Source: a virus
Strand: one strand, 5' to 3'
Length of the DNA stretch: 44,423 nt
IMG/VR virus record: IMGVR_UViG_3300046747_000088
Location: 1-44,423 of that record
Shown here: positions 18 through 44,423 of the stretch, piece after piece
Position numbering within the stretch: position 1 is the stretch's first letter
Layout: the number at the start of each line of letters is the position of its first letter
Program-made: the position numbers and the translations under genes
The notes under the pieces: generated by a model
The model's input: only the letters and a program-made list of their open reading frames with translations
Told to the model about the DNA's origin: nothing
Database searches by the model: none

Positions 18-233
18 GTGGGCGCTGACACGCTCGACCTGGCGCTCGACTCTGCCGGGAAAGACGAGAGCGACGTAGGTCACGATCTCTGGTTGACCCG
101 GCGCGGACACGGCGCCGGTTTCTGGGATGGCGATTGGCCTATGCCGTATTCGGTGGACTTCTCGGACGCGGCGCGCGGCCTGGGCGACTGCGATCTATAC
201 CGGGGCGACGATGGGCGGTTGTATCTGGCCTAG
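18..233 (+). CDS. Phage hypothetical protein, probably 5'-truncated
   Basis: The protein contains the signature GHDLWLTRRGHGAGFWDG (about residues 21-38) followed by an acidic region and GDCDLYRGDDGRLYLA. I recognise this as the C-terminal part of a widespread phage/plasmid hypothetical family (DFWLTRNGHGAGFWDR). Family members usually have a further 50-80 N-terminal residues. Here the reading frame is open to the window edge, so either the true start lies outside the window or a shortened protein starts at the GTG at position 18 (weak AAAGG upstream). It is the first gene of a run of small plus-strand genes. No function is known. The TAG stop is followed directly by the first tRNA-like element. 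Confidence 0.6.
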   Translation: MGADTLDLALDSAGKDESDVGHDLWLTRRGHGAGFWDGDWPMPYSVDFSDAARGLGDCDLYRGDDGRLYLA

Positions 234-241
234 CTCGACGC

Positions 242-283
242 GACCCGCAACGGTTAGTGCCGGTTCGATTCCGGCGGCGGGTC
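242..283 (+). ncRNA. tRNA-like minihelix element 1
   Basis: Seven perfect outer pairs join GACCCGC (242-248) and GCGGGTC (277-283). They enclose a linker AACGGTTAG that matches a tRNA D-loop, and a T-arm made of TGCCGG/CCGGCG (258-263 with 271-276, one T-G wobble) around loop TTCGATT. GGTTCGATTCC is the exact T-arm consensus. There is no anticodon arm and no room for one. Seen: the pairing and motifs. Inferred: a structured RNA that mimics the acceptor/T-arm/elbow of tRNA. This copy lacks the GCCCANNTGGGC hairpin that follows the other four, but a palindrome CAAGATCTTG (311-320) lies downstream. Confidence 0.7.
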
Positions 284-333
284 TTAGATCGAAGGTGTGT
301 TTTTTGCGCTCAAGATCTTGACAAGAAAAAAAC

Positions 334-341
334 GATCGGAG
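334..341 (+). promoter_or_regulatory. Stereotyped ribosome-binding sequence GATCGGAG (copy 1)
   Basis: GATCGGAG lies 5 nt before the ATG at 347 and fixes that start. The same octamer precedes several other genes of this phage. It contains the Shine-Dalgarno core GGAG but is conserved beyond it, like the start-associated sequences of cluster K mycobacteriophages. Confidence 0.65.
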
Positions 342-346
342 TAGAT

Positions 347-532
347 ATGAGTATTGAAGAACGACACGCGCTGATGATCGCCGAGGTAACGCTCGACGGT
401 CGGCCGGCGATCATCTCGGGGTGGGCGCTCGACTATGCGCAGGTTCGGAGCTTGGACGGCGCGCTATCGGGCGAATGGGCCTGGGCGACGGCGGCGCGGA
501 TCGTCGGGAGGGGCGGCGCGTTCCGCACCTGA
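347..532 (+). CDS. Small phage hypothetical protein (61 aa)
   Basis: I do not recognise a family. The product begins MSIEERHALMIAEVTLDG and contains SGEWAWATAARIVGRGG near its end. The start is chosen because the conserved GATCGGAG sits 5 nt upstream; longer readings of this frame would run through tRNA-like element 1. The gene stands alone between two tRNA-like elements, about 60 nt after the first and 8 nt before the second. Codon use is GC-rich like its neighbours. Confidence 0.6.
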   Translation: MSIEERHALMIAEVTLDGRPAIISGWALDYAQVRSLDGALSGEWAWATAARIVGRGGAFRT

Positions 533-540
533 ACGGAGAC

Positions 541-581
541 GGCGCGAACGGTTACACCCCGGTTCAATTCCGGGGCGCGTC
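541..581 (+). ncRNA. tRNA-like minihelix element 2
   Basis: Outer stem GGCGCG (541-546) pairs with CGCGTC (576-581), six pairs with one G-T. The linker AACGGTTACA is nearly the same D-loop-like string as in element 1. The T-arm is CCCCGG/CCGGGG (six pairs, 557-562 with 570-575) around loop TTCAATT, also a legal T-loop. The stems differ in sequence from element 1 yet keep pairing. The element begins 8 nt after the preceding stop codon. Confidence 0.72.
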
Positions 582-583
582 TT

Positions 584-595
584 GCCCACCTGGGC
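584..595 (+). other. Hairpin GCCCACCTGGGC after tRNA-like element 2
   Basis: A 12-nt inverted repeat (GCCC/GGGC) placed exactly 2 nt (TT) after the outer stem of element 2. No U-tract follows, so it is not a standard terminator. The same hairpin with variable centre follows elements 3, 4 and 5. Confidence 0.65.
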
Positions 596-630
596 GACCG
601 GGGCCGGACCTATCTGGCCTGAACACTCAA

Positions 631-638
631 GATCGGAG
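631..638 (+). promoter_or_regulatory. Ribosome-binding sequence GATCGGAG (copy 2)
   Basis: The conserved octamer lies 9 nt before the ATG at 648 and supports that start. Confidence 0.6.
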
Positions 639-647
639 TAACAACGA

Positions 648-935
648 ATGACCGCAAAAGAACAAAATCGTAACTACCGGGGCCTCGTCGGCTTGAAGGG
701 CCGCGGCTTGTTCGTCGCGCAGAACAAGCGGACGCCGAAGCGCACCCACTCGAACGTGTACACCATCGAGAACGGGCGCCTAGTGGATGTCACGATTCAC
801 GCGGCGGATCTAGTCGGCGGTGACCGCTACCGGCACGGCGAGTTGCTGTGGCCGACTGGCGTCAATTCTCTCGCGAGTGAGCTTGAGCTACACGTAGGCA
901 AGGACCGCGTAATGGGAACGGTCGGCAACAACTAA
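648..935 (+). CDS. Phage hypothetical protein (95 aa)
   Basis: No family recognised. The sequence is basic at its N-terminus (KRTPKRTHSNVYTIENGRL) with a compact mixed beta-rich remainder ending in VGKDRVMGTVGNN. The start has the phage's GATCGGAG motif 9 nt upstream. The gene is monocistronic between tRNA-like elements 2 and 3, about 65 nt after one and 5 nt before the other. Confidence 0.65.
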   Translation: MTAKEQNRNYRGLVGLKGRGLFVAQNKRTPKRTHSNVYTIENGRLVDVTIHAADLVGGDRYRHGELLWPTGVNSLASELELHVGKDRVMGTVGNN

Positions 936-940
936 TCCAC

Positions 941-982
941 TCCCCGCCTGGTGGCGCGGCGCGGTTCGATTCCGCGCGGGGA
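941..982 (+). ncRNA. tRNA-like minihelix element 3
   Basis: TCCCC (941-945) pairs with GGGGA (978-982), extendable to TCCCCGC/GCGGGGA if the T-stem is shortened. The T-arm is GCGCGG/CCGCGC (959-964 with 972-977) around loop TTCGATT. The linker contains GCCTGGTGGCGC, which closely matches a common tRNA D-arm (GCCTGGTAGCGC). This D-arm match, different from that of elements 1 and 2, is a strong hint of tRNA ancestry or tRNA mimicry. Confidence 0.72.
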
Positions 983-985
983 ATT

Positions 986-997
986 GCCCACATGGGC
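986..997 (+). other. Hairpin GCCCACATGGGC after tRNA-like element 3
   Basis: Perfect GCCCA/TGGGC inverted repeat 3 nt (ATT) after element 3. The spacing and stem match the copies after elements 2, 4 and 5 while the central bases vary. Confidence 0.65.
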
Positions 998-1053
998 GTA
1001 AAGTCAGACGGCAGGATTACCGATACTATTGATACCCTGCACGAACTAAAACA

Positions 1054-1061
1054 GATCGGAG
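1054..1061 (+). promoter_or_regulatory. Ribosome-binding sequence GATCGGAG (copy 3)
   Basis: It lies 5 nt before the ATG at 1067 and argues for that start over upstream in-frame codons that would place the hairpin inside the coding sequence. Confidence 0.6.
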
Positions 1062-1066
1062 ACGCA

Positions 1067-1303
1067 ATGCCAGAAGAATCAGATAACAAGCTCAAGGACT
1101 ACGCCGAGATGGTGGCCGATGCCGGATGGCGAGACATCGAAGAGTACGAGGTAGATCTCGCGCTTGAAGCTCTCGACATCTGCCGGGACTTCACTCAATA
1201 CGTCGATGCCGGGGAAGACATTAACGGCCTGCTCGACGCGGCGGAAGAAGTATCCAAGCGCGCGGATCTTGTCTACGCGCGCAAGAACAGCTTGGAGGGA
1301 TGA
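1067..1303 (+). CDS. Small acidic hypothetical protein (78 aa)
   Basis: Begins MPEESDNKLKDYAEMVADAG and is strongly acidic, with a predicted all-alpha composition (YEVDLALEALDICRDF, LLDAAEEVSKRADLVYARK). No family recognised. The start is set by GATCGGAG 5 nt upstream. The stop overlaps the next start as ATGA (1300-1303), so the two genes are translationally coupled. Confidence 0.65.
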   Translation: MPEESDNKLKDYAEMVADAGWRDIEEYEVDLALEALDICRDFTQYVDAGEDINGLLDAAEEVSKRADLVYARKNSLEG

Positions 1304-1911
1304 TGAGCGAAGTAGAGACGCACGACGTACGCGGGATAACCGCGACGATCAGCTACGACGACTGCTCGTTTGACCCGCGCAAGGATCACGACAATGCCGG
1401 GGTCATGGTTTGCGCCCATCGGCGCTACGACCTGGGCGACGAACGGCCGAAGGCGGAGCTTGACGACTACCCGACGATGGACACGTACATGCGGCGCGTT
1501 TACGACGCGGCCGTATGGCTCCCGCTGTACCTGTATGACCACTCGGGATTGTCGATCAGTACCGGAAGTTTCGGCGACCCTTGGGATAGCGGTTGCGTCG
1601 GATTCATCTACATGGACTGCGCAACGTTGCAGCACGAATTTGGCACGACCGCGAATGCCGAACGGATCGAGAACGCTCTCGCGCTCCTGCGCGGGGAAGT
1701 TGACGAATACGACAATTACCTAACCGGGCAGGTTTACCGCTGGGAGACGGACGGGGATGGATGCGGCGGCTACTTCGGAGACGACGGCCTTGAGTATTGC
1801 CGCTCCGAAGCGCTCGACGCTGCCAAGCACGAAGCGGACGAACGCGACCGCTCCCGACTCATGCGCGGCCTGGCGCAATGCGGTGGAGGCGTAGCGCTGC
1901 CGGCCCTCTAG
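1300..1911 (+). CDS. Conserved phage hypothetical protein (PLYLYDHSG family, 203 aa)
   Basis: The protein carries a pattern I recognise from a widespread phage and plasmid family of unknown function: DNAGVMVCAHRRYDLGDE (near residues 30-47), LPLYLYDHSGLSIST (near 75-89), GDPWDSGCVGFIYMD, EYDNYLTGQVY. The last fifth, rich in charged residues and ending GGGVALPAL, is not part of that signature. GGAGGG lies just before tandem ATGs at 1300 and 1303. It is coupled to the upstream 78-aa gene and followed within 10 nt of its stop by tRNA-like element 4. A cytoplasmic early role is likely from position only. Confidence 0.8.
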   Translation: MMSEVETHDVRGITATISYDDCSFDPRKDHDNAGVMVCAHRRYDLGDERPKAELDDYPTMDTYMRRVYDAAVWLPLYLYDHSGLSISTGSFGDPWDSGCVGFIYMDCATLQHEFGTTANAERIENALALLRGEVDEYDNYLTGQVYRWETDGDGCGGYFGDDGLEYCRSEALDAAKHEADERDRSRLMRGLAQCGGGVALPAL

Positions 1912-1919
1912 CTCGACTC

Positions 1920-1966
1920 GACGCGTACCGGACACGCCGGCAGGGGTTTCGCGAACCCCGCGCGTC
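1920..1966 (+). ncRNA. tRNA-like minihelix element 4 (divergent copy)
   Basis: GACGCG (1920-1925) pairs with CGCGTC (1961-1966), six pairs. The inner arm GGGGTT/AACCCC (1943-1948 with 1954-1959) has loop TCGCG, so the T-loop consensus is lost, and the linker itself can form CCGG/CCGG (1928-1931 with 1937-1940). The upstream flank CTAGCTCGACNCGAC (including the gene stop) is shared with element 1. Position and the following hairpin are conserved, so I keep it in the family as a degenerate or specialised copy. Confidence 0.55.
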
Positions 1967-1968
1967 TT

Positions 1969-1980
1969 GCCCACCTGGGC
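1969..1980 (+). other. Hairpin GCCCACCTGGGC after tRNA-like element 4
   Basis: Same 12-nt inverted repeat and same TT spacer as after element 2. Its presence beside the divergent element 4 shows that the two parts behave as one module. Confidence 0.65.
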
Positions 1981-1992
1981 AGAACAAAAATA

Positions 1993-2000
1993 GATCGGAG
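1993..2000 (+). promoter_or_regulatory. Ribosome-binding sequence GATCGGAG (copy 4)
   Basis: It lies 10 nt before the ATG at 2011 and supports that start. Confidence 0.55.
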
Positions 2001-2010
2001 ACGTATCAAG

Positions 2011-2217
2011 ATGGACAACCTAAATAACCTGCCGACGCTCAGTCAAGGTCACGACGCTGACCTAAAGATCGACGCGGCCCCTATCCGGGTCTGGATCTCG
2101 CGCCTTACGCGCGAGGACGGCGCGGAGTTCGACAACGGAATCGTTATCGAGCACTACAACGGCCACTCCTGGGCGACGGCCGCGCTGCTCGCGAACACCG
2201 CGCGAGTGGAGTCGTAA
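2011..2217 (+). CDS. Small hypothetical protein (68 aa)
   Basis: No known family. The C-terminal half (VWISRLTREDGAEFDNGIVIEHYNGHSWATAALL) looks like a small beta-sheet fold. The WATAA string also occurs in the 61-aa product at 347-532, a weak similarity. GATCGGAG precedes the start by 10 nt, and the stop overlaps the next start as TAATG. Confidence 0.6.
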   Translation: MDNLNNLPTLSQGHDADLKIDAAPIRVWISRLTREDGAEFDNGIVIEHYNGHSWATAALLANTARVES

Positions 2218-7011: not shown

Positions 7012-7448
7012 CTGAGCGCCCCTTCCAGCAATTCCCAGTCCGGGATGTCAGAGTCAAGGTGTGGCCCGTCCCAGTCTCCAAGCTGGGGCTGGCCGTCTCC
7101 GAACTCTTCGATCGGGGCGAGCCACCCCTCCATGCGCTCCCCATCGGCGACGGTGATCCCGACACTGAACGTGTCCTCCATCTCCCCGTCCTCCCCGATC
7201 ACGGGTCCGACCGCGATCAGCGCGAGCCGCTTGAAGTGGCGGCGCTCGATCAGCGGGACGAGCCGCTGCTCCCAGGTCAGCCGGCGAAGCGCGGCCTGCG
7301 CGAGCGCTTCATTGGCGACCATCAGAAACGCGCCGCTCTGCCCGTCGCCGTTGAGCAGGAAGAAATGAACGAGCGGATTTACTGACCGGCTCTCGACGGC
7401 ATCTTCTGCCTGAGCCTTCACGTAGTCAACGAACTCCCGGTACTTCAT
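7008..7448 (-). CDS. Hypothetical protein (146 aa)
   Basis: Begins MKYREFVDYVKAQAEDAVES with GGAGG 8 nt before the ATG; in-frame readings upstream are the antisense of the next gene's coding region and are rejected. The middle looks like an alpha/beta fold (PLVHFFLLNGDGQSGAFLMV, RLALIAVGPVIGEDGEMEDT) and the tail is acidic (WDGPHLDSDIPDWELLEGAL). No family recognised. Confidence 0.65.
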   Translation of the reverse strand: MKYREFVDYVKAQAEDAVESRSVNPLVHFFLLNGDGQSGAFLMVANEALAQAALRRLTWEQRLVPLIERRHFKRLALIAVGPVIGEDGEMEDTFSVGITVADGERMEGWLAPIEEFGDGQPQLGDWDGPHLDSDIPDWELLEGALR

Positions 7449-43502: not shown

Positions 43503-44357
43503 ATGAACCTCAACACAAACACTCCTCTCAAGCTGGGCGACCGAATCGAAGTCACCCGCACTATTCAAGATAAGTATTGGCACGTTCCGGCAGGCGTTAC
43601 GGCCGTCGTTGATCGCATCGACTACTACGAAGGGCGCGTTAGCCCGTCGGTGTTCCGCTATCGCGTCATCACGCTCAAGCTGTCGCAGGTCATCCCAAAC
43701 CTTCCTCACCCGGACGGTTTCAGCGACGACGGTTGCGACCTTCTGTGCATCGACACTTCCGACGATCTCACGGGTGCCGAGATGCTTGATTGTCTCGCGC
43801 TGACTTCGCCGATTGTCGGCTACTTCGTCTCGACTGCCGAAGCTGGTTGTCTGCCGAATGATTCGGCGTACGTCTCGACGGTTGCCGAAGTTCTCGACAT
43901 CATCGCCGATACGGGCGACGATATGCCGGATGATGATCCGTACCTGACGCACGTTCTGCGGCTGTATGACGCGATCAAATTTCACGGCATCGACGCGCGC
44001 ACGGGTGAAGGCGTAATGCTGTCTGACTCGCTCGTAATGGCGATTGAACCGCTCGACGCGCGCGCGCTGCTCGATCTCTATAACGCGAATAACGAATACG
44101 CGCAAGAGAACCGCACGTATGAGACGGCATCGGCGCTGCACGATATGCGCGAGATGTTCGCGGATCTCCCGGAAGAAGTGCAGGCCATCGAGACGGCGCT
44201 CGACGGCGCTCCTGCAGACTCCCCGCGCATCTACTCGGTTGAGCTTCACATGGGCGGGTATCGCGTCTATGGCGAAGATTGGTGGGATGATCTCGACGCG
44301 CTGTACGCGGATGAGAACGAACGCGAGTTCATGCTCGAAACTCTGAACCGCGCGTAG
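43503..44357 (+). CDS. Acidic hypothetical protein (284 aa)
   Basis: MNLNTNTPLKLGDRIEVTRT and VPAGVTAVVDRIDYYEGRVS look like a small beta-barrel at the N-terminus. The rest is acidic and helical (DLTGAEMLDCLALTSPIVGY, LPEEVQAIETALDGAPADSP, WWDDLDALYADENEREFMLE). AAGGG precedes the ATG. It is the only coding gene of the right plus-strand unit, controlled by CCGATAC repeats and followed by tRNA-like element 5. It probably belongs to the same operon as the left-end genes. Family not recognised. Confidence 0.65.
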   Translation: MNLNTNTPLKLGDRIEVTRTIQDKYWHVPAGVTAVVDRIDYYEGRVSPSVFRYRVITLKLSQVIPNLPHPDGFSDDGCDLLCIDTSDDLTGAEMLDCLALTSPIVGYFVSTAEAGCLPNDSAYVSTVAEVLDIIADTGDDMPDDDPYLTHVLRLYDAIKFHGIDARTGEGVMLSDSLVMAIEPLDARALLDLYNANNEYAQENRTYETASALHDMREMFADLPEEVQAIETALDGAPADSPRIYSVELHMGGYRVYGEDWWDDLDALYADENEREFMLETLNRA

Positions 44358-44384
44358 GCGCTTCACCCGCGCGGTAGGCGCTTC
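44354..44384 (+). repeat. Short direct repeat GTAGGCGCTTC
   Basis: GTAGGCGCTTC occurs at 44354-44364 (across the stop codon) and 44374-44384 (inside tRNA-like element 5), 20 bp apart. The second copy lies in the D-loop-like linker. Confidence 0.6.
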
Positions 44385-44408
44385 GGCCGGTTCGATCCCG
44401 GCGCGGGT
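44365..44408 (+). ncRNA. tRNA-like minihelix element 5
   Basis: ACCCGC (44365-44370) pairs with GCGGGT (44403-44408). The T-arm GCCGG/CCGGC (44386-44390 with 44398-44402) carries loop TTCGATC, again the exact consensus. The linker GCGGTAGGCGCTTCG contains a GGTAGGC D-loop-like run. It starts 7 nt after the stop of the 284-aa gene. This copy, at the right edge of the window, links that gene to the left-end family. Confidence 0.7.
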
Positions 44409-44411
44409 ATT

Positions 44412-44423
44412 GCCCAATTGGGC
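44412..44423 (+). other. Hairpin GCCCAATTGGGC after tRNA-like element 5
   Basis: A perfect 12-bp palindrome, 3 nt (ATT) after element 5, exactly at the window end. Same design as after elements 2-4 with another centre. Confidence 0.65.

Follow-up and report, generated by a model that had tools for sequence, protein, structure and literature searches.

Anticodon-less tRNA mimics at phage gene junctions as candidate cut-and-cap signals in polycistronic mRNA

The left end of a phage genome raises the question of what tRNA-like structures that cannot decode might be doing between genes. The window, that is, the whole stretch of DNA analyzed here, is a 44,423-base virus record in which terminase, portal, capsid, replication, and integrase genes were identified. 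Its capsid protein is distantly related (24-33% identity) to those of Vibrio phage VS-ABTNL-3, Roseobacter phage CRP-810, Caulobacter phage Kuura, and PaMx41. Within the left 2 kb, four tRNA-like elements separate small genes on the + strand, and a fifth lies at the contig end. A sequence-only reading had described an acceptor-like stem, a D-like linker, and a T-arm in each of these five gaps. All five elements (E1-E5) are confirmed in place on the + strand (Table 1), and the stems listed in that reading all pair, with one G-U in E2. A stop codon lies 6-10 nt ahead of every element.

Table 1. Mini-tRNAs, hairpins, and neighboring genes in the window
Feature	Positions	Strand	Description
E1 mini-tRNA	242-283	+	acceptor GACCCGC/GCGGGTC; linker AACGGTTAG; T-arm, loop TTCGATT; not followed by a TTGCCCA hairpin
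E2 mini-tRNA	541-581	+	acceptor GGCGCG/CGCGTC; linker AACGGTTACA; 6-bp T-arm; loop TTCAATT
E3 mini-tRNA	941-982	+	acceptor TCCCCGC/GCGGGGA; D-like hairpin GCC TGGT GGC; T-arm
E4 variant	about 1920-1966	+	acceptor GACGCGT/GCGCGTC; D-like hairpin CCGG/CCGG; T-like hairpin lacking a canonical T-loop
E5 mini-tRNA	44365-44408	+	acceptor ACCCGCG/CGCGGGT; D-like linker CGGTAGGCG; T-arm TTCGATC
Hairpin directly after E2	582-597	+	TTGCCCACCTGGGCGA
Hairpin directly after E3	986-997	+	GCCC ACAT GGGC
Hairpin directly after E4	1967-1982	+	TTGCCCACCTGGGCAG
Hairpin after E5	44412-44423	+	GCCC AATT GGGC; at contig end
ORF upstream of E1	18-233	+	stop 8 nt before E1
Small gene between E1 and E2	347-532	+	leader with GATCGGAG
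Small gene between E2 and E3	648-935	+	leader with GATCGGAG
Small gene after E3	1067-1303	+	3' end overlaps next gene; no element between them
203-aa gene upstream of E4	1300-1911	+	unknown function (phrog_6186)
Small gene downstream of E4	2011-2217	+	leader with GATCGGAG
284-aa gene upstream of E5	43503-44357	+	stop 7 nt before E5

The window holds five occurrences of the consensus GGTTCRANYCC, where 0.41 would be expected, and four of them are those of E1, E2, E3, and E5, as had been read from the sequence. These same four elements were recovered by a structural scan for an acceptor/T stack of 11-13 bp, a linker of 7-22 nt with GG, and a T-loop. The scan returned exactly E1, E2, E3, and E5 on the + strand and zero mini-tRNAs on the - strand, while shuffled (Markov) windows gave 0.017 on average. 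All four combine the acceptor/T-arm stack with a TTCRANY T-loop and GG in the D region. The cloverleaf with an anticodon arm that defines a tRNA gene is absent, as linkers of 7-22 nt are too short to hold an anticodon arm. A tRNA-Arg(CCG) called by ARAGORN at 493-582 shares its T-arm with E2 and has its first 40 nt inside the upstream ORF; it was set aside as a forced cloverleaf. E4 was missed by the T-loop scan. It has GGGTTTCGCGAACCC in place of a canonical T-loop; it folds into an acceptor, a D-like hairpin, and a T-like hairpin with a folding-energy z of -3.28. The corresponding values for E1, E2, E3, and E5 (-0.8 to -1.9) are unremarkable, and the case for these four rests on pattern, position, and covariation, not on folding energy alone.

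The elements do not stand by themselves. An exact copy of TTGCCCANNTGGGC lies directly 3' of E2, E3, E4, and E5, and these four copies are the only exact ones in the window; E1 lacks this hairpin. A common leader with GATCGGAG precedes the ATG of each gene downstream of E1-E4. Because TTGCCCANNTGGGC follows E2-E5, the repeated unit can be described as stop codon, mini-tRNA, hairpin, leader with GATCGGAG, and start codon. The hairpin had been overlooked in the sequence-only reading.

Homologous elements were sought elsewhere with a covariance model and with motif scans. The model (R1), which was seeded with seven elements and not with E2, recovered elements outside its seed, including E2 (31.1 bits) and E3 (31.5 bits); E5 scored weakly, at 19.9 bits. 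With it, four elements were also found on a 63-kb phage contig, in consecutive gaps over a span of less than 1.4 kb. A scan of a viral collection for the T-loop together with the window hairpin returned two loci that are copies of one phage type, with identical architecture (L001 and L003), as well as a normal cyanophage tRNA that shares the trailer. Relaxing the hairpin requirement brought in more carrier phages. A scan for a D-like linker motif retrieved at least 120 stretches, most of them with the structure, and a scored scan of 19 loci yielded 26 elements, compared with one in 2.5 Mb of Markov sequence. With duplicates collapsed and tRNAs masked, the collection scans gave at least 139 non-redundant mini-tRNAs in at least 103 loci; both figures are lower bounds biased to the motifs searched, and the loci partly overlap and do not amount to a count of viruses. 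The carriers are unrelated metagenomic phages, cultured cyanophages, prophages, and a few haloarchaea. Among cultured phages they include P-GSP1, P-SSP7, P-SSP10 (two elements), and the T7-like phage Syn5, where the element lies upstream of the capsid gene; the elements of P-SSP2 and P-SSP3 have longer linkers or a mismatch. ARAGORN reported no tRNA in the stretches of P-GSP1, P-SSP2, S-CBP3, and P-SSP7. Homologues, for which the sequence-only reading had proposed a search, thus turned up in many other phages; how widespread the elements are had not been seen there.

Several candidates were discarded along the way. L002, L004, and L006 carry ordinary tRNAs followed by a hairpin, the matches in L023 lie inside a real tRNA cluster, and L116 and L091 8397 are ordinary tRNAs. 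In the genome collection, 77 of 93 matches failed the pairing test, many of them chance matches in Nocardia. Only matches that passed were used, and a few of these may also be due to chance (the swap leaves an expectation of 3.3). Searches for close relatives found none that spans the elements of the window: a terminase search returned one contig, L010, in which the element region is not covered; relatives of the gene at 1300-1911 (L490-L493, 32-40% identity) had no mini-tRNA; a search with the gene at 43503-44357 found no relative; and no mini-tRNA was detected by the scan in phage Kuura, whose capsid protein is distantly related.

Selection on the RNA structure was assessed in two ways, both chosen so as not to be circular. 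In the first, a pattern that fixes only the linker and the T-loop, and no acceptor base, gave 96 distinct viral matches. The structural scan was passed by 66 of these, against an average of 14.5 (maximum 20) when the 5' acceptor strands were swapped among the matches, and T-stems of at least 5 bp were present in 83 of the 96, against 8 after the swap. In the second, cyanopodovirus loci were fetched by their capsid protein alone, which left 74 with enough upstream sequence. At 31 of these sites an element lay some 120-230 nt ahead of the capsid match (loose threshold 18). The scan found none at the other 43, and the element is consequently dispensable at this site. An alignment of 20 distinct sequences from this orthologous position showed pairing in 94.3% of cells, against 69.2% in shuffled alignments (0 of 500), and 57 doubly changed, that is, compensatory, cells, against 17.3 (0 of 500). 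The covariation score was 0.601, compared with 0.189 for shuffled alignments and at most 0.156 for slid controls. The alignment was fitted to the model, which favors these figures; the swap test is free of such bias. GG was present in 31 of 31 linkers that had not been selected on the linker, although the scan gave it a small bonus. The agreement of the swap test with the capsid-site covariation sustains the earlier proposal of an anticodon-less tRNA-like family under structural selection. That proposal had been staked on homologues and covariation in related genomes, and both were found, the covariation in phages other than close relatives of the window.

A full tRNA-Trp occupies this capsid site in two relatives, and tRNA-likes with altered anticodon arms are found there in several. 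The exchange of a full tRNA-Trp, altered-arm forms, and anticodon-less forms at one site suggests that what is kept is a processing signal and not decoding. The full tRNA-Trp would be compatible with descent of the elements from tRNA genes, without proving it. It could also be read as a sign that the elements have lost all function and are remnants of tRNA genes or of integrase attachment sites, and integrases are indeed encoded by the window phage and by T7-like cyanophages. Compensatory changes, the presence of several different copies per phage, and strict positioning do not fit decay or a single attachment site, and this explanation is hardly credible.

The positioning is most clearly seen from stop codons. 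Counting only stops that end open frames 60 codons or longer, a same-strand stop falls between -15 and +9 of the acceptor start in 67 of the 139 listed elements; the opposite strand gave 16, and random sites gave about 10. Listed elements lie inside long open frames in 26% of cases, against 55% in the control. With these counts, the earlier claim that the elements lie between genes stands on strong ground. Among elements that were not selected for a hairpin, a strong one occurs within 12 nt downstream in 44%, against 9% at random sites and 3% in shuffled sequence; more than half of the elements found in this way are therefore without one. Two stacked GC-rich structures at gene ends might be taken for transcription terminators or attenuators. 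However, no U-tract follows them, a terminator scan found no U-tract terminators at the elements, and the genes go on along the same strand, all of which leaves this possibility extremely slight.

The proximity to stop codons also allows a translational role, in which a tRNA mimic at the terminating ribosome would act on release, on recycling, or on re-initiation at the gene that follows. The stop codons do lie within a ribosome footprint of the element, and sometimes inside the element itself, and a Shine-Dalgarno-like motif with a start codon follows 62% of the elements, against 39% in the control. On the other hand, the spacing from element to next start varies in the window (roughly 35-90 nt), and the overlapping gene pairs, where coupling would be expected (1067-1303/1300-1911 and 2011-2217/2217-2588), have no element between their members. 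Such a role is very unlikely.

The preferred reading is that the mini-tRNAs are signals resembling t-elements, at which RNase Z, and perhaps RNase P, cuts the polycistronic mRNA to leave a tRNA-like 3' end on one message and a 5' hairpin on the next. A probability of roughly 0.55 is assigned to it, and we infer each of its cleavage, CCA-addition, and protection steps from the sequence, predicted structure, covariation, position, and distribution described above. The element would be a tRNA cut down to the parts that enzymes read, with the acceptor stacked on the T-arm (11-14 bp) and the GG-bearing D-like linker supplying the elbow, and would mark the boundary between two messages of a polycistronic transcript. 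Host RNase Z would cut just 3' of the acceptor, between mini-tRNA and hairpin, which is the most likely common step. The upstream message would then end in a tRNA-like cap, up to which exonucleases would trim and which the CCA enzyme could tail, while the downstream message would begin with a hairpin resisting 5'-end-dependent decay. In Bacillus subtilis, tRNA precursors lacking CCA are processed by RNase Z, whose activity rises about 200-fold when a U stands no more than 2 nt from the discriminator (PMC10100781). CCA is encoded at +2 to +4 in one of the 139 listed elements, and U at +2/+3 is found in 74% and 70% of two linker-pattern sets, against 43% and 34% in controls, where acceptor edges were chosen by score and the discriminator position is uncertain by 1-2 nt. 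The U excess agrees with the B. subtilis rule and, together with the near absence of CCA, points to the RNase Z route.

The division of labor between the two enzymes is where the preferred reading departs from the earlier one. In mitochondria, working tRNAs between genes divide the polycistronic transcript. The phage elements likewise place tRNA structures between genes, but these are unable to decode, and some of them contain the stop codon. The sequence-only reading had taken RNase P cutting in the mitochondrial manner as the general mode; in its strict form, RNase P would cut at the 5' side and RNase Z at the 3' side, the mini-tRNA would be excised and thrown away, and single-gene messages would result. 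The stack length and the elbow features suit RNase P, which measures the T-arm/acceptor stack (PMC4919913), and all upstream stop codons in the window lie 5' of the element and would be spared by a 5' cut. However, in 26 of the 110 elements with an assignable upstream ORF, the stop codon falls within the 5' strand of the acceptor or extends into it. Since an RNase P cut would there remove the stop and create non-stop messages, a 3' cut by RNase Z is favored, and the earlier claim of a general mode is weakened. Furthermore, the upstream frame appears to continue into the tRNA-like structure in L421, L423, and L424, and only 62 of the 139 listed elements have G as their first acceptor base. Strict punctuation is thus unlikely as a general account. 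In the cut-and-cap reading, RNase P may still make a 5' cut wherever the stop codon precedes the element, which is the case in the window.

Two occurrences sit less easily with the preferred reading. L205 holds an array of nine or more units, spaced about 100-190 nt from one another, and ORFs of 50 aa or more are few in the intervals; the elements of L362 and L367 lie in haloarchaeal sequence, where no viral hallmark appeared among the few genes checked. For neither is phage gene punctuation an obvious explanation. The array would suit a decoy or sponge, in which freed mini-tRNAs bind host tRNA enzymes or tRNA-directed defense nucleases, as would the retention of elbow and acceptor features but not of the anticodon. 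A sponge, however, has no need for one element per junction placed tightly at stop codons, many phages have only one or two elements, and anticodon nucleases would not read a decoy without an anticodon. This function is quite improbable. Extending the cut-and-cap reading to the whole family, so that widespread anticodon-less tRNA mimics would serve as cis-acting signals in viruses of prokaryotes and also in a few operons of archaea, with RNase Z (with or without RNase P) leaving a CCA-tailed 3' cap and a 5' hairpin, is a tentative claim held at somewhat less than even odds.

Known systems offer partial parallels. At RNase III sites of phage T7, cleavage between genes produces messages with stable hairpin ends; the phage elements likewise lie between genes, but their mini-tRNA structure differs and the enzyme probably does too. 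In plant viruses, a tRNA mimic caps the 3' end of the viral RNA, where it is single, placed at the genome end, and often charged, whereas the phage elements are internal, repeated, and found in DNA phages. With Rfam 15 at the gathering score, no family matched the window or eight loci rich in elements. E3 bears a weak resemblance to mascRNA/menRNA (RF01684), a small tRNA-like at a transcript end, but its 19.1 bits (E = 1.5) fall short of the gathering score of 42.5; mascRNA/menRNA, however, derives from eukaryotic nuclear long non-coding RNA. The closest precedent is provided by the t-elements of plant mitochondria, which are cut from mRNA ends by RNase P and RNase Z and CCA-tailed but not charged (PMC11658184). 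Like the phage elements, they are tRNA-like structures at mRNA ends with no encoded CCA and a non-translational role. In contrast, t-elements are tRNA homologues predicted to keep the typical tRNA secondary structure, while the phage elements lack the anticodon arm, recur at successive genes, are often followed by a hairpin, and are so far predicted to be cleaved. No phage precedent was found in a search of open-licence literature or in one comparative RNA survey, a scope that makes the novelty provisional.

If the cut-and-cap reading is true, tRNA punctuation, familiar from organelles, would be used systematically by viruses of prokaryotes too, by means of a stripped-down tRNA that does not decode, and phage operons would have a new way to set the ends of their mRNAs. 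It would explain an intergenic signal unreported by tRNA finders and Rfam, among others in the model cyanophages Syn5 and P-SSP7. The elements would also give RNA biologists naturally occurring minimal substrates of RNase Z, RNase P, and the CCA enzyme, and cultured phage-host pairs allow a direct test of the claim.

Upstream of the capsid gene, loci L445 and L481 carry a full tRNA-Trp (CCA), and in related cyanopodoviruses the same site is occupied by the anticodon-less form. The elements of L421, L423, L424 and L447 look intermediate between the two. Visual inspection of L421, L423 and L424 suggests that the reading frame of the scaffold gene runs into the tRNA-like element upstream of the capsid gene and that the stop codon of this frame lies within that element.

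The units of the mini-tRNA (anticodon-less tRNA-like element) array at locus L205 are spaced ~100-190 nt apart, most are followed 3' by a hairpin, and their T-loop variants include TTCGATT, TGCAATT and TGCAAAT; ORFs of at least 50 aa are scarce between them. The GCCC/GGGC hairpin after the ordinary tRNA-Gly genes resembles that of the window. Such 3' trailers were met on many phage tRNAs in the scans.

Coordinates of mini-tRNAs and other features
Feature	Location	Strand	Remarks
Mini-tRNA tandem array	L205:1626-2849	-	at least 9 units
Phage tRNA-Gly gene	L002:1810-1894		hairpin directly 3'
Phage tRNA-Gly gene	L004:3691-3775		hairpin directly 3'
Mini-tRNAs	L362:717-758, 2715-2755, 7409-7446		haloarchaeal genome sequence
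Mini-tRNA	L367:6534-6578		haloarchaeal genome sequence
Common leader	window:331-349, 631-650, 1052-1069, 1992-2013		5' of start codon
Integrase gene (phrog_1)	window:13006-13968	-	phage

The haloarchaeal mini-tRNAs, from Salinigranum and Halospeciosus genomes, adjoin Peptidase_M73/camelysin-like genes, and no viral hallmark was found among the genes checked there. In the window, the genes downstream of mini-tRNAs E1-E4 share a leader with GATCGGAG. The integrase gene suggests that the virus is a temperate phage.
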